64,000 nt of DNA from assembly GCF_001661075.1 (NCBI RefSeq), contig NZ_CP014870.1, forward strand, positions 5,399,703 through 5,463,702, in the 5' to 3' direction. Position numbers and translations under genes: made by a program. The notes under the pieces are model-generated. The model did not search any database, was not told the DNA's origin, and was given only the letters and a program-made list of their open reading frames with translations. Numbering within the stretch: the stretch's first letter is position 1; every line of letters begins with the position of its first letter. Source of the DNA: Pseudomonas silesiensis. Lineage in GTDB: Bacteria > Pseudomonadota > Gammaproteobacteria > Pseudomonadales > Pseudomonadaceae. Shown in pieces: positions 20,978 through 62,496 of the stretch.

Positions 20978-21202
20978 TTTGATCGTGATCGGCTCGAAAT
21001 AATTTGCGCACGTCCTACAGATTTAGCGGTTACCGGGAAGTATTCCGACAACTTCTATCGGTTGCCGCGTCGGAAGTCGGCGAGATAGGCTTTGGAAGTC
21101 GCTGAAAATCAGCGACCGGGCGTCGCGGCTCGAATTAGCTTACTTGGTGCATAATCACCCACCCCAATCGACAATCCTTCAATGCTTGTCGTTTGGTCTT
21201 AT

Positions 21203-21282
21203 GGTGGCTGTGCGTGGGATACCTTCGGGTATGCCGGGTTTTCCAAGTAGCTCGGTCCGCGAACCTGCGCACAGCTGCCACC
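21203..21282 (+). ncRNA. Structured three-way-junction leader RNA, copy 1
   Basis: Closing stem: GGTGGC/GCCACC (21203-21208 with 21277-21282) and TGTGCG/CGCACA (21209-21214 with 21268-21273). Inside are a hairpin ATACC-TTCG-GGTAT (21219-21232) and a second stem GCCGGG/CTCGGT (21233-21238 with 21251-21256). The second copy at 22053 keeps all three helices with compensatory changes, which supports a functional RNA fold. It ends 55 bases before the downstream start codon, so a cis-regulatory leader is likely. I cannot name a known family. Confidence 0.7.
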
Positions 21283-21337
21283 TTTGATTGCGTCGCGGCG
21301 ATCAATGGCAGCTCCATTACCTACTTGGAGCTTCACC

Positions 21338-21706
21338 ATGTTCAAACCCTCCCCGAATCCCCCCGAAAACGACGCCGTCTCCCCCTACGCCGCCGATTCG
21401 AACAAACTCAACGAAGCCGCCGAACGCGCCCTCGATCTCCACTTCCCGTCGACTGCCGACATCAAAGCCACCCCGCGCACGCCCAACACCCTGTTCACGG
21501 TGGACCCAAAGGCCACGACCGAAACCCTCGTGGTTTATCTGGTCGAGACGCTGGCATCGGTCGATGTGATGGTCCATCACCTGGTGGATCATCTGGACGG
21601 CGGATCGCGCAATGCTCTTCTGGGTATTTCAAATAGCATCATGCTCGCGGAGATCACGGCGAATCGGGTGCTGGATCAGATCGAGTCACCTGCATCGGCA
21701 CGGTGA
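21338..21706 (+). CDS. DUF6124 family small protein, copy 1
   Basis: 122 residues from ATG 21338, with GGAG 7 bases upstream. It has a Pro-rich start (MFKPSPNPPEN), a helical middle (NKLNEAAERALDLHF) and a C-terminal helical region (TTETLVVYLVETLASVDVMV, then LLGISNSIMLAEITANRVLD). It resembles the Pseudomonas DUF6124 family, whose function is unknown. The protein is nearly identical to the copy at 22186, apart from the first 25 residues and the tail. It sits downstream of the structured leader. Confidence 0.85.
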   Translation: MFKPSPNPPENDAVSPYAADSNKLNEAAERALDLHFPSTADIKATPRTPNTLFTVDPKATTETLVVYLVETLASVDVMVHHLVDHLDGGSRNALLGISNSIMLAEITANRVLDQIESPASAR

Positions 21707-21754
21707 CAATAACCAGTTTTTGCCGCTTCTAATTTGAATGATTTGCTGCCCTTA

Positions 21755-21864
21755 TGTAGGAGCGAGACCGGCTTGCCGGCGAAGGTCGTCAACGATAACG
21801 CGTCGTGCCTGATACCCCGTAGCGTTCTGACGTTTTTCGCCGGCAAGCCGGTCTCGCTCCCACA
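21755..21864. repeat. REP inverted pair, second copy of the duplicated unit
   Basis: TGTAGGAGCGAGACCGGCTT at the left faces AAGCCGGTCTCGCTCCCACA at the right. It opens the second REP-leader-DUF6124 unit in the gap 21707-22185. The rest of that gap is leader sequence similar to 21000-21330. Confidence 0.85.
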
Positions 21865-22052
21865 TTTGTACGTGATCCGTCTGAAAAATTTGCGCACGTC
21901 CTACAGATTTAGCGGTTACCAGGAAGGATTCCGACAACTTCTATAGGTTGCCGTGTCGGAAGTCGGGAGGATAGGCTTCGGGGTCGCTGCAAATTCAGCG
22001 AACGGGTTTGGTCGCCCAGGTTTAGAATGGCGCACTTTTCGTGCTTGCTTCA

Positions 22053-22129
22053 TGGCGAGCTGTGCGTGGGAGGGCTTCGGCCCTGCCGGGTTCCATTCCC
22101 TGGTCGACCAACCTGCGTACGGTTCGCCA
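22053..22129 (+). ncRNA. Structured three-way-junction leader RNA, copy 2
   Basis: A continuous closing stem of about 14 pairs joins 22053-22066 to 22116-22129, with some G-U pairs. Inside are the hairpin AGGGC-TTCG-GCCCT (22071-22084) and the stem GCCGGG/CCTGGT (22085-22090 with 22099-22104). Three of the five UUCG-hairpin pairs differ from copy 1, and all remain paired. It ends 56 bases before the gene at 22186. Confidence 0.7.
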
Positions 22130-22185
22130 CCCAACTGCTTGGTCGCAGTCGTGGCGAACTCTCTTTCTTCGAATGGAGCTTCACC

Positions 22186-22548
22186 ATGTTCAAACCAACC
22201 CCGAATCCCCCCGAAACCGACGCCGTCTCCCCCTGCGAATCCGCCGATTCAAACACACTCAACGAAGCCGCCGAACGCGCCCTCGATCTCCATTTCCCGT
22301 CGACTGCCGACATCAAAGCCACCCCGCGCACGCCCAGCACCCTGTTCACGGTGGACCCAAAGGCCACGACCGAAACCCTCGTGGTTTATCTGGTCGAGAC
22401 GTTGGCATCGGTCGATGTGATGGTCCATCACCTGGTGGATCATCTGGACGGCGGATCGCGCAATGCTCTTCTGGGTATTTCAAATAGCATCATGCTCGCG
22501 GAGATCACGGCGAATCGGGTGTTGGATCAAATTGATCCATCGCAATAA
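22186..22548 (+). CDS. DUF6124 family small protein, copy 2
   Basis: 120 residues from ATG 22186, with TGGAG 7 bases upstream. It matches the copy at 21338 almost completely from residue 25 to residue 115. The differences cluster at the N-terminus (ETDAVSPCESADSNT) and the last few residues (DQIDPSQ). DNA identity is also very high, which points to a recent tandem duplication or gene conversion. Function is unknown. Confidence 0.85.
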   Translation: MFKPTPNPPETDAVSPCESADSNTLNEAAERALDLHFPSTADIKATPRTPSTLFTVDPKATTETLVVYLVETLASVDVMVHHLVDHLDGGSRNALLGISNSIMLAEITANRVLDQIDPSQ

Positions 22549-22670
22549 GCGTTCAATAACCAATCGATCTAAAAAACTGGCAACAATGACAGTAGCTGTC
22601 GTCTGCGCCCCCAAGGAAGATCCATAGCAAGCGCACAACCGTTCGCACTCGCTGATCCTCGGAGCCCGCC

Positions 22671-23897
22671 ATGTCCCACACCCAATTTCGCACTCATTGG
22701 ACAGAGGCGTTGGTCAAGGGTGATATCGGCTTGCACCAGTTGCCTGCGACGCTGTCACGCAAGGAAGCCTCACGCGTGCGCCGTGAGGCTTTGCAACGTA
22801 TCACCGGATCGCCGCTCGGCACGATCGGTGACTACACCTTCGATCCGCAGTCCGCCAAGTGCGAGAACTTTATCGGTGCCATCCAGATTCCCGTGGGGGT
22901 CGCCGGCCCCCTGCGGGTCAATGGCCGGGCCATCACCGCTCGAGAACCGGTCTTTGCACCGCTTGCCACCACCGAAGGCGCGTTGATCGCCAGTGTTTCC
23001 AGGGGGTGCAGCGCGTTGCGTGCTGCCGGCGGTGCGGTAGTCCGGGTCGACGATGTCGGGATTACTCGAGCACCGGTCTTTCGCTCCAGCGGCATCATCC
23101 AGACCCAGGCTTTCCTGGCGTGGGTACACACCCACTTCGACGAGATCAAACAACTGTGCGAGCGGGACAGCCATCACTTGACGTTGCAGGACATCGCACC
23201 GGCTACGGTTGGCTGCACGATCTACCTGCGTTTTCGCTTCAACAGCGTCGATGCAATGGGCATGAATATGGCGAGCATCGCTTGCGACAGAGCCATTACT
23301 GAACTGATCAGCCCGGCAACGGGCGTACCCTGCATCAGCATCTCGGGCAATTACTGCACCGACAAAAAACCCGCCATGGTCAACTTCCTCAATGGTCGGG
23401 GCAAACGCATTTATGCCGAAGCCTGCCTGAGCGCCGACATCGTGCGCGACATCCTGAAAACCGATGCCGCATCGCTGTGTGAAGTCCAGTACCGCAAGAA
23501 CTTGCTCGGTTCGGCCATGGCGGGTGCGATTGGCTGTAACGCCCATCATGCAAATATTCTTGCAGCCTTTTTTATCGCCACCGGACAAGACGTTGCCCAA
23601 GTGGCGGAAAGTGCCATGGGCATTACCTGCATCGAAGACAGGGGAAACGGGGCCCTGTATGCGTCGATCCTGTTGCCGGATACGCCCCTGGGCACCGTCG
23701 GAGGCGGCACCGGCCTCGGGACTCAACGAGAAGCGCTGGCGTTGATGGGGATCGTCCCCGGGGCCAAGGCGCCGGGCGTCGACACCTTGCGCCTGGCCGA
23801 AATACTCGGCGCGCTGGTGTTGGCCGGGGAACTGTCGATCATGGCGGCCCAGGCGTCTCATCATCTGGTCCAGGCCCATGTGCAACTGGGCCGCTGA
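22671..23897 (+). CDS. hmgA: Class I hydroxymethylglutaryl-CoA reductase
   Basis: 408 residues, with GGAG 7 bases before the ATG. It reduces HMG-CoA to mevalonate with NADPH. All catalytic positions of the class I enzyme are visible: Glu102 in PLATTEGAL, Asp231-Lys232 in SGNYCTDKKPA, Asp307 in TGQDVAQ, and His403 in the C-terminal HLVQAHV. DAMGMNM is the cofactor-binding segment. It is the soluble catalytic part only, with no membrane domain. Class I form means the archaeal/eukaryote-like biosynthetic type, unlike the class II degradative enzyme known from P. mevalonii. It is the first gene of a three-gene operon, 3 bases before mevalonate kinase. Confidence 0.92.
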   Translation: MSHTQFRTHWTEALVKGDIGLHQLPATLSRKEASRVRREALQRITGSPLGTIGDYTFDPQSAKCENFIGAIQIPVGVAGPLRVNGRAITAREPVFAPLATTEGALIASVSRGCSALRAAGGAVVRVDDVGITRAPVFRSSGIIQTQAFLAWVHTHFDEIKQLCERDSHHLTLQDIAPATVGCTIYLRFRFNSVDAMGMNMASIACDRAITELISPATGVPCISISGNYCTDKKPAMVNFLNGRGKRIYAEACLSADIVRDILKTDAASLCEVQYRKNLLGSAMAGAIGCNAHHANILAAFFIATGQDVAQVAESAMGITCIEDRGNGALYASILLPDTPLGTVGGGTGLGTQREALALMGIVPGAKAPGVDTLRLAEILGALVLAGELSIMAAQASHHLVQAHVQLGR

Positions 23898-23900
23898 ACA

Positions 23901-24944
23901 ATGACATCGATGACCATCCAGGCGCGCGCGCCCGGCAAGATAATCCTGATGGGCGAGCACGCCGTCCTGCATGGATGCCCTGCCATTGCCACTGCGCTGG
24001 GCCTGTATTGCACGATCAAGGTGCAACCGCGCGGGGACGGGCAGATAGAGCTGCAATTGCCCGACCTCAACCTTCATCGGTGCTACACCTTTCAAACCCT
24101 GCTCGACTACGTGGGGCGCGTGCGCCAATCGTCCGCACAGGGTTTTGCCTATGAAGTGGCCACCGACGCCGACCATCTGATCAAATGCGCCATCGGCGAA
24201 CTCCTGCTCAGGCTGGCGCCTGAAGACTGGCGAGGTTTTTCTCTTCGAGTGGAATCGAGCATTCCGGCCAACGCCGGATTCGGCAGTTCGGGTGCATTGG
24301 CCGTCAGCCTGGCAGCGGCGCTGTTGCGTTTTTTCAACCTGAAACCGCCCCGGCACCCGCTGGAGCCGCTGGCGATGAGTATCGAACGCTACCAGCACGG
24401 CCAACCGTCGGGGATCGATCACAACACCAGCCTCCGAGGTTCGACAATCGAACGGCGCCCCATGGCAAATGGCAGTTTCAAGCTGATTTCCTGGCCCAAA
24501 AGTGCGGCGTGGCTGCAACTGCGCGACGTCGAGCTCTACGACACCGGTCCCGCTCGCGAGAGTACGGGACAGGTGATCGCCGCCACCCGCTACCGGCTCG
24601 AAGGCCCCGACAATCCGCTGCTGGAAAGCATGCGCCACAGTGCCGAACGCTTTCGAAGCCTGTTGCAACGGCCCGTCCTGATGCCCGAAACCCTCAAGCA
24701 CCTGCTACGTGACTATGAACAGGCGCTGGAGTGTCTTGGCGTGGTGCCGAAGAAGATTGCCAAGGTCATTCGGGCCATCGAAAGGGTCGGCGGTGCGGCA
24801 AAAATCTGCGGCGCCGGTGCACTCTCCGGCGACCAGGCGGGCGCGCTGCTGGTGATCGGCGCACCGGCCCTTCCGGAACTGGCGCAATTTCGCAGAATCA
24901 ACGCGCCACTGGCCGTCGATGGTTTGGAGGTCTGCGAAACATGA
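23901..24944 (+). CDS. mvk: Mevalonate kinase (GHMP family)
   Basis: 347 residues from ATG 23901; ATG 23910 is possible. It phosphorylates mevalonate at position 5. GHMP motifs are present: ARAPGKIILMGEHAVLHG at the start, the ATP loop IPANAGFGSSGALAVSL (about 127-143), and the mevalonate-kinase catalytic Asp in HGQPSGIDHNTS (about 169-180). The third motif, KICGAGALSGDQAGALLV, is present with fewer glycines than usual. It starts 3 bases after the reductase stop and overlaps the next gene by ATGA, so the operon is translationally coupled. Confidence 0.9.
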   Translation: MTSMTIQARAPGKIILMGEHAVLHGCPAIATALGLYCTIKVQPRGDGQIELQLPDLNLHRCYTFQTLLDYVGRVRQSSAQGFAYEVATDADHLIKCAIGELLLRLAPEDWRGFSLRVESSIPANAGFGSSGALAVSLAAALLRFFNLKPPRHPLEPLAMSIERYQHGQPSGIDHNTSLRGSTIERRPMANGSFKLISWPKSAAWLQLRDVELYDTGPARESTGQVIAATRYRLEGPDNPLLESMRHSAERFRSLLQRPVLMPETLKHLLRDYEQALECLGVVPKKIAKVIRAIERVGGAAKICGAGALSGDQAGALLVIGAPALPELAQFRRINAPLAVDGLEVCET

Positions 24945-25942
24945 ATAAGGTGAGCGTGTCCTCGCCCAGCAATATTGCGCTGATCAAATACTGGGGCATG
25001 AGCGATGCCCAACGGACTTTGCCCAACAATGCCTCTCTCTCGATGACCCTGAACCAGTGCGTCAGCTATTGCACGTTAGCGCGACAAACGAGCGGCACGA
25101 GCGATGAGATTTTGTGGAAAACAGCCAGCGGTTCACTGATACCTGCTCAAGCGTCCATGCGCCGCGGGATCGAACAGCATCTACAGCAATTGCGTCAACA
25201 CTTCGACGATTGGCAGCCGTTGCGCATTGCAACCGTCAACAGCTTCCCGACCGGTGCGGGCATTGCCTCATCGGCCTCCGGGTTCAGTGCGCTGGCACTG
25301 GCGTTCGCGTTGCGTTGCGGGCAATCGTTCAACAGTCCCGACCTCAGCCAACTGGCACGTCTGTCCGGCTCCGGCTCGGCAGCGCGCTCGGTCATAGGCG
25401 GGTTCGTGCAGTGGCCAGGCCATCCTGGCCAACTGCACTGCCCCGCAGAACAGTTCGCACCCGCGCAGCATTGGCCCCTGCATGACCTGATCGCTGTCGT
25501 CGATGCCGGGCACAAAAACATCAGCTCCCGAGAAGGCCATCGCCTCGCCGCCAGCAGCCCTTTTTACGCGGCTCGCCTGACCCAGTTGCCCGAGCGACTC
25601 AATACCCTGCGCGAAGCCATCCTGAACCGCGACTTCGACACATTGGCCGATACCGTGGAGCGCGAAGCCGTGGAAATGCACATGATCGCCATGACTTCAA
25701 AACCCGCGATCTTTTACTGGCAACCGGTGACGCTGGAGATTCTGGCGCGGGTTCGACAACTGCGGCGCGACGGCTTGCAAGTGTGCTCGACGGTGGATGC
25801 CGGCCCTAACGTGCATGTGCTGTGCACGTTGCAAGATGTCTCGGCTGTCTACACGGCCTTACGAAAATTGCCGGGGGTGGAGCAATGGATCTTCGATCAG
25901 GCGGGCGATGGCCCGAGGCAACTGGCACGCCATCTGTTTTGA
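24941..25942 (+). CDS. mvaD: Diphosphomevalonate / phosphomevalonate decarboxylase family protein
   Basis: 333 residues. It carries the family signature SPSNIALIKYWG, the ATP loop FPTGAGIASSASGFSALALA (102-121), LSGSGSAARSVIGGFVQW (141-158), and catalytic Asp286 in STVDAGPNVHV. The residue after KYWG is Met20, where diphosphomevalonate decarboxylases have a Lys that, as I recall, contacts the substrate diphosphate. No phosphomevalonate kinase gene is adjacent, so the substrate may be mevalonate 5-phosphate, giving isopentenyl phosphate. This is inference; the canonical reaction on the diphosphate, giving isopentenyl diphosphate, is the alternative. It overlaps the kinase gene by 4 bases. Confidence 0.85.
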   Translation: MNKVSVSSPSNIALIKYWGMSDAQRTLPNNASLSMTLNQCVSYCTLARQTSGTSDEILWKTASGSLIPAQASMRRGIEQHLQQLRQHFDDWQPLRIATVNSFPTGAGIASSASGFSALALAFALRCGQSFNSPDLSQLARLSGSGSAARSVIGGFVQWPGHPGQLHCPAEQFAPAQHWPLHDLIAVVDAGHKNISSREGHRLAASSPFYAARLTQLPERLNTLREAILNRDFDTLADTVEREAVEMHMIAMTSKPAIFYWQPVTLEILARVRQLRRDGLQVCSTVDAGPNVHVLCTLQDVSAVYTALRKLPGVEQWIFDQAGDGPRQLARHLF

Positions 25943-26066
25943 ACCCGCCACACCGACGATTGACGACCTGTCCAAACCCTGAACAGAGCGCACGAATTGC
26001 CCCTGCCATTGAAACCACCCTCCACCTGCCCCATCTAAGACCCATACTCCATTGCGCAGGTGCCCC

Positions 26067-28484
26067 ATGAGCGACCAGCAAGAATTCCCTGAAGACCCCA
26101 GCGAATACGCCGACCCGGAGAACGTTGAACATCATTCCACCGGCAAAGGCCTCGCCCTGCCAGGCCAGAACCTGCCGGACAAGGTCTACATCATCCCGAT
26201 CCACAACCGCCCGTTCTTCCCGGCCCAGGTACTGCCGGTTATCGTCAATGAAGAACCCTGGGCTGAAACCCTGGATCTGGTGAGCAAATCCGATCACCAC
26301 TGCCTGGCCCTGTTCTACATGGACACGCCCCAGGAAGATCCGCGCCATTTCGACACCTCGGCCCTGCCGCTCTACGGCACGCTGGTCAAGGTGCACCACG
26401 CCAGTCGCGAAAACGGCAAACTGCAATTCGTCGCCCAGGGCCTGACTCGTGTACGTCTCAAGACCTGGCTCAAGCACCATCGCCCGCCGTATCTGGTGGA
26501 AGTCGAGTACCCGCACCAGCCCACCGAGCCGACCGACGAGGTCAAGGCCTACGGCATGGCGCTGATCAACGCGATCAAGGAGTTGCTGCCGCTCAACCCG
26601 CTGTACAGCGAAGAGCTGAAGAACTACCTCAACCGCTTCAGCCCCAACGACCCGTCGCCGCTGACCGACTTCGCCGCCGCGCTCACGTCGGCAACAGGCA
26701 GCGAACTGCAGGAAGTGCTCGACTGCGTGCCGATGCTCAAGCGCATGGAAAAAGTCCTGCCCATGCTGCGCAAGGAAGTCGAAGTCGCGCGCCTGCAGAA
26801 AGAGATTTCCGCCGAGGTTAACCGCAAGATCGGCGAGCATCAGCGCGAATTCTTCCTCAAGGAACAACTCAAGGTCATACAGCAAGAGCTGGGGCTGACC
26901 AAGGATGACCGCAGCGCCGACATCGAACAGTTCGAGCAACGTCTGGAAGGCAAAGTGTTGCCGGCCCAGGCGCAGAAACGCATCGACGAGGAAATGAACA
27001 AGCTGTCGATCCTCGAGACCGGCTCGCCGGAGTACGCGGTGACCCGCAACTACCTCGACTGGGCGACTGCAGTACCGTGGGGCGTGTACGGCGAGGACAA
27101 ACTCGACCTCAAGCATGCGCGCAAGGTGCTGGACAAACACCATGCCGGTCTCGACGACATCAAGGACCGCATCCTCGAATTCCTCGCGGTGGGTGCCTAT
27201 AAAGGCGAGATCAGCGGTTCCATCGTGCTGTTGGTAGGCCCGCCGGGCGTGGGCAAGACCAGCGTCGGCAAATCCATCGCCGAATCCCTGGGCCGGCCGT
27301 TCTACCGCTTCAGCCTCGGCGGCATGCGCGACGAAGCCGAGATCAAGGGCCATCGCCGCACCTACATCGGCGCGCAGCCGGGCAAACTCGTCCATGCGCT
27401 GAAAGACGTCGAAGTGATGAACCCGGTGATCATGCTCGACGAGATCGACAAGATGGGCCAGAGCTATCAGGGCGACCCGGCCTCCGCGCTGCTGGAAACC
27501 CTGGACCCGGAACAGAACGTCGAATTCCTCGACCACTACCTGGACTTGCGCCTGGACCTGTCGAAAGTGCTGTTCATCTGTACCGCCAACACCCTGGATT
27601 CGATCCCGGGCCCGTTGCTGGACCGGATGGAAGTGATTCGCCTGTCGGGTTACATCACCGAAGAAAAAATCGCCATCGCCAAGCGACACCTGTGGCCCAA
27701 GCAGCTTGAAAAAGCCGGCGTGTCCAAAGGCAGCCTGGCCATCAGCGACAGTGCGTTGAAAGCCTTGATCGATGGCTACGCCCGTGAAGCCGGGGTGCGC
27801 CAGCTGGAAAAACAACTGGGCAAACTGGTGCGCAAGGCCGTGGTCAAGCTGATCGACGACCCGAAAGCGGTGATCAAGCTCGGACCGAAAGACCTCGAAG
27901 CGTCCCTCGGCCATCCGGTGTTCCGCAACGAGCAGGTACTGTCGGGCACCGGTGTCATCACTGGCCTGGCCTGGACCAGCATGGGCGGCGCGACCCTGCC
28001 GATCGAAGCGACGCGGATTCATACCTTGAACCGTGGTTTCAAACTCACCGGGCAGCTGGGTGATGTCATGAAGGAGTCGGCGGAAATCGCCTACAGCTAC
28101 GTCAGTTCCAATCTGAAGTCGTTTGGCGGTGATCCGAAATTCTTCGACGAAGCCTTCGTCCACCTCCACGTTCCTGAAGGCGCCACCCCGAAAGACGGCC
28201 CGAGCGCGGGCGTGACCATGGCCAGCGCCCTGCTGTCCCTGGCCCGTAACCAGCCACCGAAAAAAGGCGTGGCCATGACCGGCGAACTGACGTTGACCGG
28301 GCATGTGCTGCCGATTGGCGGGGTGCGCGAGAAGGTGATTGCGGCGCGGCGGCAGAAGATCTTTGAGTTGATCTTGCCGGAGCCGAACCGTGGCAGTTTC
28401 GAGGAATTGCCGGATTATCTTAAGGAAGGGATAACCGTGCACTTTGCCAAGCGCTTTGCGGATGTGGCGAAAGTGTTGTTCTAA
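26067..28484 (+). CDS. lon: Lon-family ATP-dependent protease (second Lon, AsrA-like)
   Basis: 805 residues from ATG 26067, with AGG 6 bases upstream. It has an N-terminal substrate domain (about 40-240), a coiled region, an AAA+ domain with Walker A GPPGVGKTS (about 391-399) and Walker B MLDEIDK. The protease domain has catalytic Ser in KDGPSAGVTMA and Lys in GGVREKVIAA. It degrades regulatory and damaged proteins. The neighbours are not the clpX/hupB context of the main Lon, so this is probably the second pseudomonad Lon, similar to AsrA of P. aeruginosa, which has been linked to stress responses. A terminator follows. Confidence 0.92.
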   Translation: MSDQQEFPEDPSEYADPENVEHHSTGKGLALPGQNLPDKVYIIPIHNRPFFPAQVLPVIVNEEPWAETLDLVSKSDHHCLALFYMDTPQEDPRHFDTSALPLYGTLVKVHHASRENGKLQFVAQGLTRVRLKTWLKHHRPPYLVEVEYPHQPTEPTDEVKAYGMALINAIKELLPLNPLYSEELKNYLNRFSPNDPSPLTDFAAALTSATGSELQEVLDCVPMLKRMEKVLPMLRKEVEVARLQKEISAEVNRKIGEHQREFFLKEQLKVIQQELGLTKDDRSADIEQFEQRLEGKVLPAQAQKRIDEEMNKLSILETGSPEYAVTRNYLDWATAVPWGVYGEDKLDLKHARKVLDKHHAGLDDIKDRILEFLAVGAYKGEISGSIVLLVGPPGVGKTSVGKSIAESLGRPFYRFSLGGMRDEAEIKGHRRTYIGAQPGKLVHALKDVEVMNPVIMLDEIDKMGQSYQGDPASALLETLDPEQNVEFLDHYLDLRLDLSKVLFICTANTLDSIPGPLLDRMEVIRLSGYITEEKIAIAKRHLWPKQLEKAGVSKGSLAISDSALKALIDGYAREAGVRQLEKQLGKLVRKAVVKLIDDPKAVIKLGPKDLEASLGHPVFRNEQVLSGTGVITGLAWTSMGGATLPIEATRIHTLNRGFKLTGQLGDVMKESAEIAYSYVSSNLKSFGGDPKFFDEAFVHLHVPEGATPKDGPSAGVTMASALLSLARNQPPKKGVAMTGELTLTGHVLPIGGVREKVIAARRQKIFELILPEPNRGSFEELPDYLKEGITVHFAKRFADVAKVLF

Positions 28485-28534: not shown

Positions 28535-28658
28535 GCCTTGAACAATACCCTGCAAACTGAAACATCCTTACGTACAACCTGTTAATTCCAATAGTATTCC
28601 GGATTCATCATTGACGGTAAATTCAAGGCTCCAACGATCCTTGAAAGAGATGAACCCC

Positions 28659-29117
28659 ATGAATATCCAACTACGAAGAAGCCTTGTCGATCAGTGCATC
28701 AATGACGAAAGAGCGTTCCACCGTTGCTGCCAGAAAAACTATTTGAGTGCCACCGTTCAGGACCGTGGCCCATTCGACTCTGAAGAGTTTTACAGCAGCG
28801 TCGGCTCCCGGGAAATCCTGGCTATTTTCAAAGCCGGTGAAAAATACACCCCTGAAGATCGTGCCTTAGATATTTACCTGCCGAAGAACATTGAAACCGG
28901 CACTTACCCATTAAATTCGCCCGATCAATTGATCGAGATCGCTTTTACAGAGTTCCTGCCGCCTTATACCAGCTACTGGGCATCTGAGGGTGTCATGAAC
29001 CTGTCCGTGAACGCTGACACGCGAGAATATGCCGGCACATTCGACGTCAAATTCAAAGACAGACAAAATCATGAGTTTGTAGCCGAAGGCACGTTTTGTT
29101 TCTGCCTGGAAAACTAA
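28659..29117 (+). CDS. Hypothetical small protein, related to the next gene
   Basis: 152 residues from ATG 28659 (MNIQLRRSLVDQ); AGAG lies about 9 bases upstream. I do not recognise the family. There is no signal peptide or membrane segment. The second half looks beta-rich, ending EYAGTFDVKFKDRQ...FVAEGTFCF. The base composition is clearly lower in GC than neighbouring genes, which suggests acquired DNA. A similar YAGTF...F...EGE arrangement ends the protein at 29282, so the two look like diverged paralogues. Confidence 0.7.
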   Translation: MNIQLRRSLVDQCINDERAFHRCCQKNYLSATVQDRGPFDSEEFYSSVGSREILAIFKAGEKYTPEDRALDIYLPKNIETGTYPLNSPDQLIEIAFTEFLPPYTSYWASEGVMNLSVNADTREYAGTFDVKFKDRQNHEFVAEGTFCFCLEN

Positions 29118-29281
29118 CCAAGTTATTTTCCACCTCTATCGAAATTGCCACTTCGCATAAAAACCGGCAAATTACCGAAATTTAAATATAAAAAACTAGC
29201 ACAATTGACAGTATCCATTCAAAAAGAGTGATGCTAAATTTTCAATTCAAACTTAATTCCTATTTATTCACAGGCCCACTC

Positions 29282-29677
29282 ATGACCCACCTAAAACCGA
29301 CGACTCGATCACAGGCTACCGGTTACTTCAAAGCCAAAAGAAACGATCAAGAATTCTTCAATTCCGAGATGGTTTTCGCAAGCCGCTCTGGCAAATGGAT
29401 TGTCATTGAGGCGCATGTCAACCCAGGCTTTCCAGACGGGATGTCTTTCGAGTTGGATATCGATGAAGCCACGCCAGGCGGAGAACAAAACTTTGTGCGT
29501 GAAGGGTATTTGCGTTCCGTTAAGTATTACAGCGGCAGCATGATGCAATCCGCGTACGCCGGAACGTTCACCGCCACCTTAAACAATGCCACTAAAAGGT
29601 ATCAACTAACGTTTAACCTGAAGTTCTATAGCCCGGACAACCTCGAGATTGAAGGCGAGCTCGACATTACGGGCTAA
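29282..29677 (+). CDS. Hypothetical small protein, related to the previous gene
   Basis: 131 residues from ATG 29282 (MTHLKPTTRSQ); an upstream ATG at 29228 is open but has no ribosome site. It is predicted soluble and beta-rich. The C-terminal half, YAGTFTATL...LTFNLKFYSPDNLEIEGELD, parallels the protein at 28659. The surrounding DNA (29118-29281) is strongly AT-rich. No function can be assigned. The pair may be small beta-barrel binding proteins, but this is speculation. Confidence 0.65.
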   Translation: MTHLKPTTRSQATGYFKAKRNDQEFFNSEMVFASRSGKWIVIEAHVNPGFPDGMSFELDIDEATPGGEQNFVREGYLRSVKYYSGSMMQSAYAGTFTATLNNATKRYQLTFNLKFYSPDNLEIEGELDITG

Positions 29678-61386: not shown

Positions 61387-62496
61387 TTAGCCACGCGCGA
61401 TAACGGCTGCGTCGGCTTCGACCTTTTCGGCCGCTTTCTGGCGGATCAAGCGTTCAAGCTCATCCACCAGATTGTCATTGGTCAGTTTCTGCGACGGCTT
61501 GCCGTCGATGTAAATCAGGTTGGGCGTGCCGCCGGTCAAGCCGATATGGGCTTCCTTGGCTTCGCCCGGCCCGTTGACCACGCAACCGATGACCGCGACA
61601 TCCAGCGGCACCAGCAGGTCTTCGAGGCGCCCTTCCAGCTCGTTCATGGTCTTGACCACATCGAAGTTCTGCCGCGAGCAGCTCGGGCAGGCGATGAAGT
61701 TGATGCCACGGGAACGCAGATGCAGGGACTTGAGAATGTCGTAGCCGACTTTCACTTCCTCGACCGGGTCGGCCGCCAACGAGATGCGGATAGTATCGCC
61801 AATCCCTTCGGCAAGCAGCATACCGAGGCCCACGGCGGATTTCACCGTGCCTGAACGCAAACCACCGGCTTCGGTGATCCCCAGGTGCAGCGGCTGGACG
61901 ATTTCCTTGGCCAGCAAGCGGTAAGCGGCGACGGCCATGAACACGTCGGACGCCTTCACGCTGACCTTGAAGTCCTGGAAGTTCAGGCGCTCCAGGTGCT
62001 CGACGTGACGCAAGGCGGACTCGACCAGCGCGGCCGGGGTCGGCTCGCCGTATTTCTTTTGCAGGTCTTTTTCCAGGGAACCGGCGTTGACGCCGATACG
62101 GATCGGAATCCCGCGATCGCGGGCCGCGTCGACCACCGCGCGCACACGGTCTTCGCGACCGATGTTGCCCGGGTTGATCCGCAGGCAGTCGACGCCCAGT
62201 TCGGCTACGCGCAAAGCGATCTTGTAGTCGAAATGGATGTCGGCCACCAGGGGCACCTTGACCAACTGCTTGATCTTGCCGAACGCTTCGGCGGCGTCCA
62301 TATCCGGTACGGAAATCCGCACGATATCGACGCCCGCGGCTTCCAGGCGGTTGATCTGGGCCACGGTGGCGGCCACGTCATTGGTGTCGCTGTTGGTCAT
62401 GCTCTGCACAGCGATAGGCGCATCGCCGCCCACAGGCACGTTACCGACCCAGATCTTGCGGGATTCGCGACGTTTGATTGGAGATTCGCCGTGCAT
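61387..62496 (-). CDS. ispG: 4-hydroxy-3-methylbut-2-enyl diphosphate synthase (MEP pathway)
   Basis: 369 residues. Fe-S cluster ligands are in CPSCSRQNF and [10 protein letters not shown]; the start shows [21 protein letters not shown]. It makes HMBPP from MEcPP in the MEP isoprenoid pathway, showing that this organism has the MEP route. That makes the mevalonate cluster at 22.7-25.9 kb unexpected. rodZ lies 3 bases upstream. Confidence 0.97.

Follow-up and report, generated by a model that had tools for sequence, protein, structure and literature searches.

Here we describe a three-gene operon in a 64-kb stretch of the Pseudomonas silesiensis chromosome (the window, positions 5399703-5463702 of a 6.82-Mb single-contig genome), which encodes a class I 3-hydroxy-3-methylglutaryl-CoA (HMG-CoA) reductase (HMGR), a mevalonate kinase (MK) and a probable mevalonate 5-phosphate decarboxylase (MPD). 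We consider it probable that the operon was acquired as a cassette by transfer, and that it takes HMG-CoA of the host as far as isopentenyl phosphate (IP) and no further. In the proposed pathway, leucine or isovalerate breakdown by the host would yield HMG-CoA, which HMGR would convert to mevalonate and MK to mevalonate 5-phosphate; the decarboxylase would then form IP, at which point the dedicated pathway would end, and host phosphatases may convert IP to isoprenol (3-methyl-3-buten-1-ol), to be released or re-used. The chain of predicted enzymes from HMG-CoA to IP is well supported.

Gene order and enzyme identity

The genes for HMGR (22671..23897, + strand, 408 aa; HMG-CoA to mevalonate, predicted), MK (23901..24944, + strand, 347 aa; mevalonate to mevalonate 5-phosphate, predicted) and the MPD-type decarboxylase (24941..25942, + strand, 333 aa; predicted product IP) are tightly packed. 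Three bases separate the HMGR stop from the MK start, and an ATGA read from the sequence (24941..24944, + strand) joins MK to the decarboxylase; with family matches for each gene, these junctions bear out the packed operon described in an earlier note on this DNA. The operon sits between gcd and lon (both named from sequence), downstream of two DUF6124 genes. No promoter-like site was found in the intergenic stretch ahead of it (22549..22670, + strand), where a sigma-70 consensus scan performed no better than on shuffles, and tblastn (E<=0.01) recovered no further relatives of the three proteins in the window.

HMGR matched PF00368 in Pfam at 374.6 bits and TIGR00533 in NCBIfam at 414 bits (curated cut-off 441.8), with 6hr7 as its best solved relative (337 bits). 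The motifs TTEG, DKKPA, GQDVAQ and HHLVQAH are present; their roles, like those of the catalytic motifs in the other operon proteins, are ones that we presume. A degradative class II identity was ruled out, as the model for that class (TIGR00532) scored the protein at 22 bits versus 414 for TIGR00533. MK matched TIGR00549 at 116 bits (curated cut-off 163.05) and PF00288 at 55.8 bits, and all 11 solved relatives listed for it are mevalonate kinases. Since both proteins score below the NCBIfam cut-offs while Pfam supports both, we regard them as divergent members of their families. The HMGR-MK-decarboxylase order recurs in other phyla and the ratio of nonsynonymous to synonymous substitution (dN/dS) is 0.08-0.44 over the three genes, indicating that the operon is not a chance assembly.

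Substrate of the decarboxylase

The decarboxylase (PF22700, 134.4 bits; PF18376, 75.1 bits) is, judging from its sequence and modelled structure, very probably specific for the monophosphate, mevalonate 5-phosphate. Six positions distinguish MPD from mevalonate diphosphate decarboxylase (MDD) in Table 4 of Dellas 2013 (PMC3857490). The first is Lys in MDD (Lys21 in S. epidermidis), Leu in Chloroflexi MPD and Met/Tyr in the MPD of haloarchaea and Thermoplasmatales, while the second telling position in Chloroflexi is Arg/Thr (PMC3857490). The window decarboxylase has Met20 at the MDD lysine position and Thr26 at the second. By comparison, Lys is kept in all 29 decarboxylases fetched from the host's class (369 genomes searched, 50 others with a decarboxylase match, 29 of these 50 fetched). 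None of the best 120 database relatives has Lys (1 gap); column 200 is His in 119 of them (1 gap), and the catalytic Asp286 and Arg149 are conserved in 120/120. Among related loci with an intact called gene (78 compared, one of 79 being truncated), Lys occurs solely in two loci of the Candidate Phyla Radiation (CPR; L050 and L059).

Structural comparison points the same way. The closest solved relative by both sequence and structure is the MPD of Anaerolinea thermophila (6n0x/6n0y/6n0z), and the first 17 PDB matches of an AlphaFold2 model (pLDDT 92) are all this enzyme, ahead of MDDs. One of the 17, 6n0z, is an N20K H194M mutant, and Met20 and His200 of the window protein align with wild-type N20 and H194; mutagenesis shifted the specificity of A. 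thermophila MPD towards that of MDD, according to PMC9254496. Met20, the Lys of the 29 class enzymes and the MPD-type structure match together support the monophosphate as substrate, which the earlier note had raised as a possibility.

Missing partner enzymes and supply of HMG-CoA

A decarboxylase search (E<=1e-20) found the gene in 9/398 genomes of the genus, including the window's own; with the genomes of loci L009, L011 and L014, the number of distinct Pseudomonas carriers comes to 12. The earlier note saw no HMG-CoA synthase, IP kinase (IPK) or isopentenyl diphosphate (IPP) isomerase near the operon, and by homology this lack holds genome-wide in family-model searches. For HMG-CoA synthase, the window's genome had no match to PF08540 at E<=1 or to the archaeal model TIGR00748 at 1e-5; across the carriers, PF08540 found 0/12 and TIGR00748 gave only sub-cut-off matches in 3/12 (26-46 bits versus 353). 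The best isomerase matches in the window's genome were 42 bits for IDI2 (cut-off 281) and 27 bits for IDI1 (cut-off 106). A model built from an alignment of eight IPK proteins from relatives scored 390-425 bits in 5 genomes of other phyla, and IPK was not found with it in any of the 12 carriers, where matches were partial and reached 20-23 bits.

The host has the 2-C-methyl-D-erythritol 4-phosphate (MEP) route, as the earlier note had it: ispG lies in the window at 61387-62496 (- strand; found by a sequence motif scan, not a family model), and dxr was found in 12/12 carriers, the window's genome included. The MEP route supplies dimethylallyl diphosphate (DMAPP), so an isomerase would be unneeded if IP were turned into IPP. 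This bears on the main rival explanation, in which a non-homologous host kinase, of a kind that a homology search would miss, turns IP into IPP and the operon is a second source of isoprenoids, used conditionally alongside MEP. The same enzymes sit in clusters with IPK in other phyla, which also favours such a kinase, but the IPK matches in the carriers are weak and partial, and the one in the window's genome (21.6 bits) falls inside proB (glutamate 5-kinase). Six AA-kinase genes exceed the family cut-off in that genome; judged from sequence they look like lysC, proB, argB, pyrH, arcC and argA, and an IPK hidden among them was rejected for this genome. We regard a hidden kinase as unlikely. 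A divergent IPK homologue occurs in one P. syringae strain and is probably a fosfomycin kinase (Dellas 2013, PMC3857490).

Since no HMG-CoA synthase was found, HMG-CoA most likely comes from leucine or isovalerate breakdown. HMG-CoA lyase was found in 12/12 carriers, and the window's genome holds, within ~10 kb, members of the methylcrotonyl-CoA carboxylase (MCC) alpha, carboxyl-transferase, enoyl-CoA hydratase, acyl-CoA dehydrogenase and HMG-CoA lyase families, a gene set that we infer to act in leucine breakdown. This set lends support to the earlier suggestion of a leucine-derived source, which we consider fairly likely. Carbon of leucine reaches sterols in T. brucei, according to PMC5993337.

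With no IPK found, IP would probably be the end of the dedicated pathway, and its most likely course would be dephosphorylation to isoprenol, a fate that we put forward only tentatively. Both points draw on engineered IPP-bypass strains of P. putida, in which HMGR, MK and a decarboxylase make IP that, as the authors state, endogenous phosphatases turn into isoprenol; P. putida also natively consumes isoprenol (PMC9743605). The stated isoprenol fate corrects the earlier remark that IP has no known role in Pseudomonas. As for the suggestion of a cut-down route with a special product, the first part agrees with the partner enzymes not found and the monophosphate-type decarboxylase, and the product is one that we predict.

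Distribution and selection in Pseudomonas

The operon had been described from one genome, a view that its occurrence in 12 Pseudomonas genomes, as a clade of transferred genes, corrects. Among named relatives, Pseudomonas fluorescens PS862 and PS833 are the nearest at this locus, with decarboxylases 95-96% identical to that of the window. In 10/12 carriers the operon lies within a few kb after gcd, and lon then follows in 9 of these; in L012 lon comes only after ~9 kb of other genes, and the contig of L011 ends before lon. L013 and L014 carry the operon at other genomic places.

All three frames are open in 10/12 carriers. Compared with the window, dN/dS was 0.08-0.18 for HMGR (8 comparisons, omitting the damaged genes of L015 and L133 and that of L014), 0.14-0.44 for MK (11) and 0.08-0.21 for the decarboxylase (11). 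The corresponding values were 0.02-0.07 in lon (7) and 0.05-0.08 in cmoB (4). HMGR had the lowest value of the three genes in 7/8 comparisons. These ratios indicate that the operon genes are under purifying selection. Synonymous divergence (dS) to the close relatives L009 and L010 was similar in the operon (0.13-0.23) and lon (0.18-0.29), while to L131 and L133-L135 it was ~1.1-1.35 in the operon versus ~0.44 in lon, a difference to which codon bias in lon may contribute. This match and mismatch suggest that the operon co-descended with its flanks among close relatives, and not simply so in the distant carriers.

Relatives in other phyla and origin of the cassette

We surveyed the neighbours of 80 loci from named genomes, several of them on contigs that end early. 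IPK was present in 34/36 loci from Acidobacteriota, Gemmatimonadota, Bacteroidota/Salinibacteraceae and two further bacteria; the same 36 loci had IDI2 in 24/36 and HMGR in 29/36, and HMGR, MK, decarboxylase and IPK occurred together in 26/36. A common order in the Acidobacteriota/Gemmatimonadota group was FPS-IDI2-HMGR-MK-MPD-IPK-squalene/phytoene-synthase-like (FPS, IDI2 and the synthase-like gene named from sequence). Chloroflexi-type loci had IPK in 12/34 and CPR loci in 0/2. Neither IPK nor IDI2 was seen in the Pseudomonas loci (0/7 each) or in the Phytomonospora locus (0/1 each), and in the genome of Phytomonospora dxr was found and IPK was not. Among six genomes from the IPK-rich group or from Chloroflexi, some of them metagenome-assembled genomes (MAGs), dxr was not found in five (G401, G403, G405, G406 and G407) and was present in G402. 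In three of the Acidobacteriota and Gemmatimonadota genomes (G401-G403, loci L016, L023 and L035; G402 and G403 are MAGs), HMGR, decarboxylase and IPK are present, with neither HMG-CoA synthase model over its cut-off and no HMG-CoA lyase at 1e-10.

In the decarboxylase tree (76 rows, omitting 25 Chloroflexi-type loci and L045, without L036, where no gene was called, and using 10 of the 29 class decarboxylases), the 11 Pseudomonas rows formed one clade (100/99) with Serratia and Enterobacter as sister (99/97). A wider group of 18 rows (99/79) adds Streptomyces, Luteibacter, one further row and Phytomonospora; it is placed among lineages mostly with IPK in the locus, apart from the ordinary MDDs of the class. 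The HMGR tree, its rows filtered to 330-560 aa, was similar overall and grouped Enterobacter mori and Pectobacterium brasiliense with Pseudomonas (100/99); here the Pseudomonas rows were unresolved as a single clade (18% of bootstrap trees), and Phytomonospora, on a long branch, was placed elsewhere. A horizontally acquired cassette is the best reading of these trees.

At the Phytomonospora endophytica locus (L039, 2033-12681), the three-gene set adjoins an IclR regulator, an aromatic amino acid lyase, a P450 and a ketoacyl synthase, perhaps forming a natural-product cluster.

Alternative readings of the operon

Several observations weigh against a cassette dedicated to IP. The decarboxylase passes the NCBIfam model for the diphosphate enzyme (TIGR01240, 222 versus a cut-off of 171.35) and fails the MPD equivalog NF040704 (144 bits versus 475). 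Only two of the six positions in Table 4 of Dellas 2013, Met20 and Thr26, differ from MDD; Tyr17 and Ser146 are common to MDD and MPD and do not separate them, while at Ser144 and Ser196 the protein agrees with MDD and haloarchaea, not Chloroflexi. His200 is less telling than the lysine, as 2/29 Lys-bearing class decarboxylases also have His there (11/29 have Met). Phosphomevalonate kinase was checked within the 64-kb window only (tblastn for relatives of MK). The HMGR gene is damaged in 2/12 carriers, the chain is read from genes alone with its product and activities predicted, and isoprenol from a carrier strain is reported nowhere in what was available of the literature matches listed.

The first of these observations would fit a canonical route, in which the decarboxylase uses mevalonate diphosphate and a phosphomevalonate kinase elsewhere in the genome completes the classical pathway; at four of the six signature positions, the residues are compatible with MDD. 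The NCBIfam models, however, do not decide on the substrate, since scores over TIGR01240 and under NF040704 (147-185 bits) are also seen in five relatives whose loci contain IPK (L016, L035, L053, L061 and L069; two Chloroflexi and three others). NF040704 appears to be a narrow model, and we set the NCBIfam names aside as substrate evidence because the models do not separate MDD from MPD. The loss of the diagnostic lysine, the MPD-type structure match and the relatives with IPK all argue against the canonical route, as does the failure to find HMG-CoA synthase and isomerase, and we consider it very improbable.

The damaged reductases lack approximately residues 125-314 in L015/L132 (L015 8308-8939, L132 7069-7700) or show a frame change near residue 46 that is possibly a sequencing error (L133 5858-7070); MK and the decarboxylase are open in each case. 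Such copies could be expected if MK and the decarboxylase salvaged mevalonate from plants or fungi and HMGR were dispensable. This explanation is improbable given that HMGR is uninterrupted in the other carriers and shows the lowest dN/dS of the three genes in 7/8 comparisons; among the neighbours of the operon, we also saw no transporter that the carriers share. The damage, the patchy occurrence in the genus and operon dN/dS values above that of lon might equally mark a decaying remnant with no present function, but dN/dS far below 1 in all three genes and the three open frames in most carriers make a remnant decidedly improbable. We retain the transferred, IP-forming cassette as the preferred reading.

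Surroundings of the operon

The gcd-lon interval (window 21332-22548) and the stretch after lon (28611-29677) hold variable small genes that differ among relatives, namely DUF6124 genes and two open reading frames without a Pfam match. DUF6124 is frequent in the gcd-lon interval, yet missing from some carriers, and no conserved extra gene adjoining the Pseudomonas cassette was seen among the neighbours examined. Just upstream of the DUF6124 genes, Rfam C4 antisense RNAs (RF01695) match at 21197-21285 (+) and 22048-22134 (+), scoring 56-72 bits against a gathering threshold of 45. Four of five further scanned DUF6124-bearing loci have a C4 RNA upstream of DUF6124 (L009 7095-7183, L011 11198-11286, L131 4725-4811 and L134 8901-8989) and L135 has none; L131 additionally matches the a1/b1 target of C4 RNA. 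A phage-type antisense RNA is paired here with a chromosomal DUF6124 gene.

A riboswitch was rejected, as Rfam at the gathering threshold gave only the C4 RNAs in 21000-27000. Phage origin was rejected with no relative in viral_contigs, and plasmid origin with no DNA match in plasmids; by protein, the best of 24 plasmid records was a Streptomyces record at 39%.

Relation to known pathways and implications

We regard the operon as a novel form of an already known alternative mevalonate pathway. The haloarchaea-type pathway, which uses MPD and IPK and occurs in haloarchaea as well as in Roseiflexus and other Chloroflexi, shares MK and the MPD-type decarboxylase with it, and in both the decarboxylase acts, here by prediction, before any second phosphorylation (PMC3857490). 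Of the features of that pathway and of MPD itself, HMGR with mevalonate kinase, the MDD/MPD fold with catalytic Asp/Arg, and the lack of Lys at the diphosphate-binding position (Met20) are all present. We do not file the operon under the haloarchaea-type pathway, because three defining features (IPK, isomerase and HMG-CoA synthase) were not found in the window's genome; the host also has MEP, and the class I HMGR lies inside the operon. By descent, the operon looks like a truncated haloarchaea-type pathway. Clusters of Acidobacteriota and Gemmatimonadota (e.g., L017, L019 and L046), the nearest large group of relatives for the decarboxylase and HMGR, have the three genes in identical order; unlike those of Pseudomonas, clusters of this type keep IPK and often IDI2, and dxr was not found in 4/5 such genomes tested (G401, G403, G405 and G406, with G402 the exception).

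Functionally, the operon resembles the engineered IPP-bypass of P. putida, which includes HMG-CoA synthase and relies on promiscuous decarboxylase activity (PMC9743605), while the window genes are natural, have an MPD-type site and come with no HMG-CoA synthase that we could find. An HMGR is likewise found in Pseudomonas mevalonii, which catabolizes mevalonate with a class II, NADH-dependent enzyme; that of the window is class I and stands beside a kinase and a decarboxylase of a biosynthetic route. We found no published notice of the Pseudomonas operon among the literature matches listed, whose coverage excludes subscription papers. The main text of a 2026 review of bacterial isoprenoid pathways does not contain the word 'Pseudomonas' (PMC13001223; its supplementary table lies outside this coverage).

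We raise the possibility, still speculative, that bacteria with the MEP route, in at least two phyla, share a family of mobile three-gene cassettes whose dedicated end product is IP made from leucine-derived HMG-CoA. The IP, or isoprenol formed from it, would then be secreted as a volatile or signal rather than serve as an isoprenoid precursor. This idea draws on Pseudomonas and Phytomonospora; decarboxylase relatives also occur in Serratia, Enterobacter, Luteibacter and Streptomyces, known here from decarboxylase sequences and not from gene neighbourhoods. If true, the alternative mevalonate pathway would have been cut at IP and transferred to hosts with an IPP supply of their own from MEP, and IP would gain a biological role besides that of IPP precursor. 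Natural monophosphate-type decarboxylases, and a natural IPP-bypass route free of HMG-CoA synthase, would then be available from the cassettes, and many 'diphosphomevalonate decarboxylase' annotations in this clade would state the wrong substrate.

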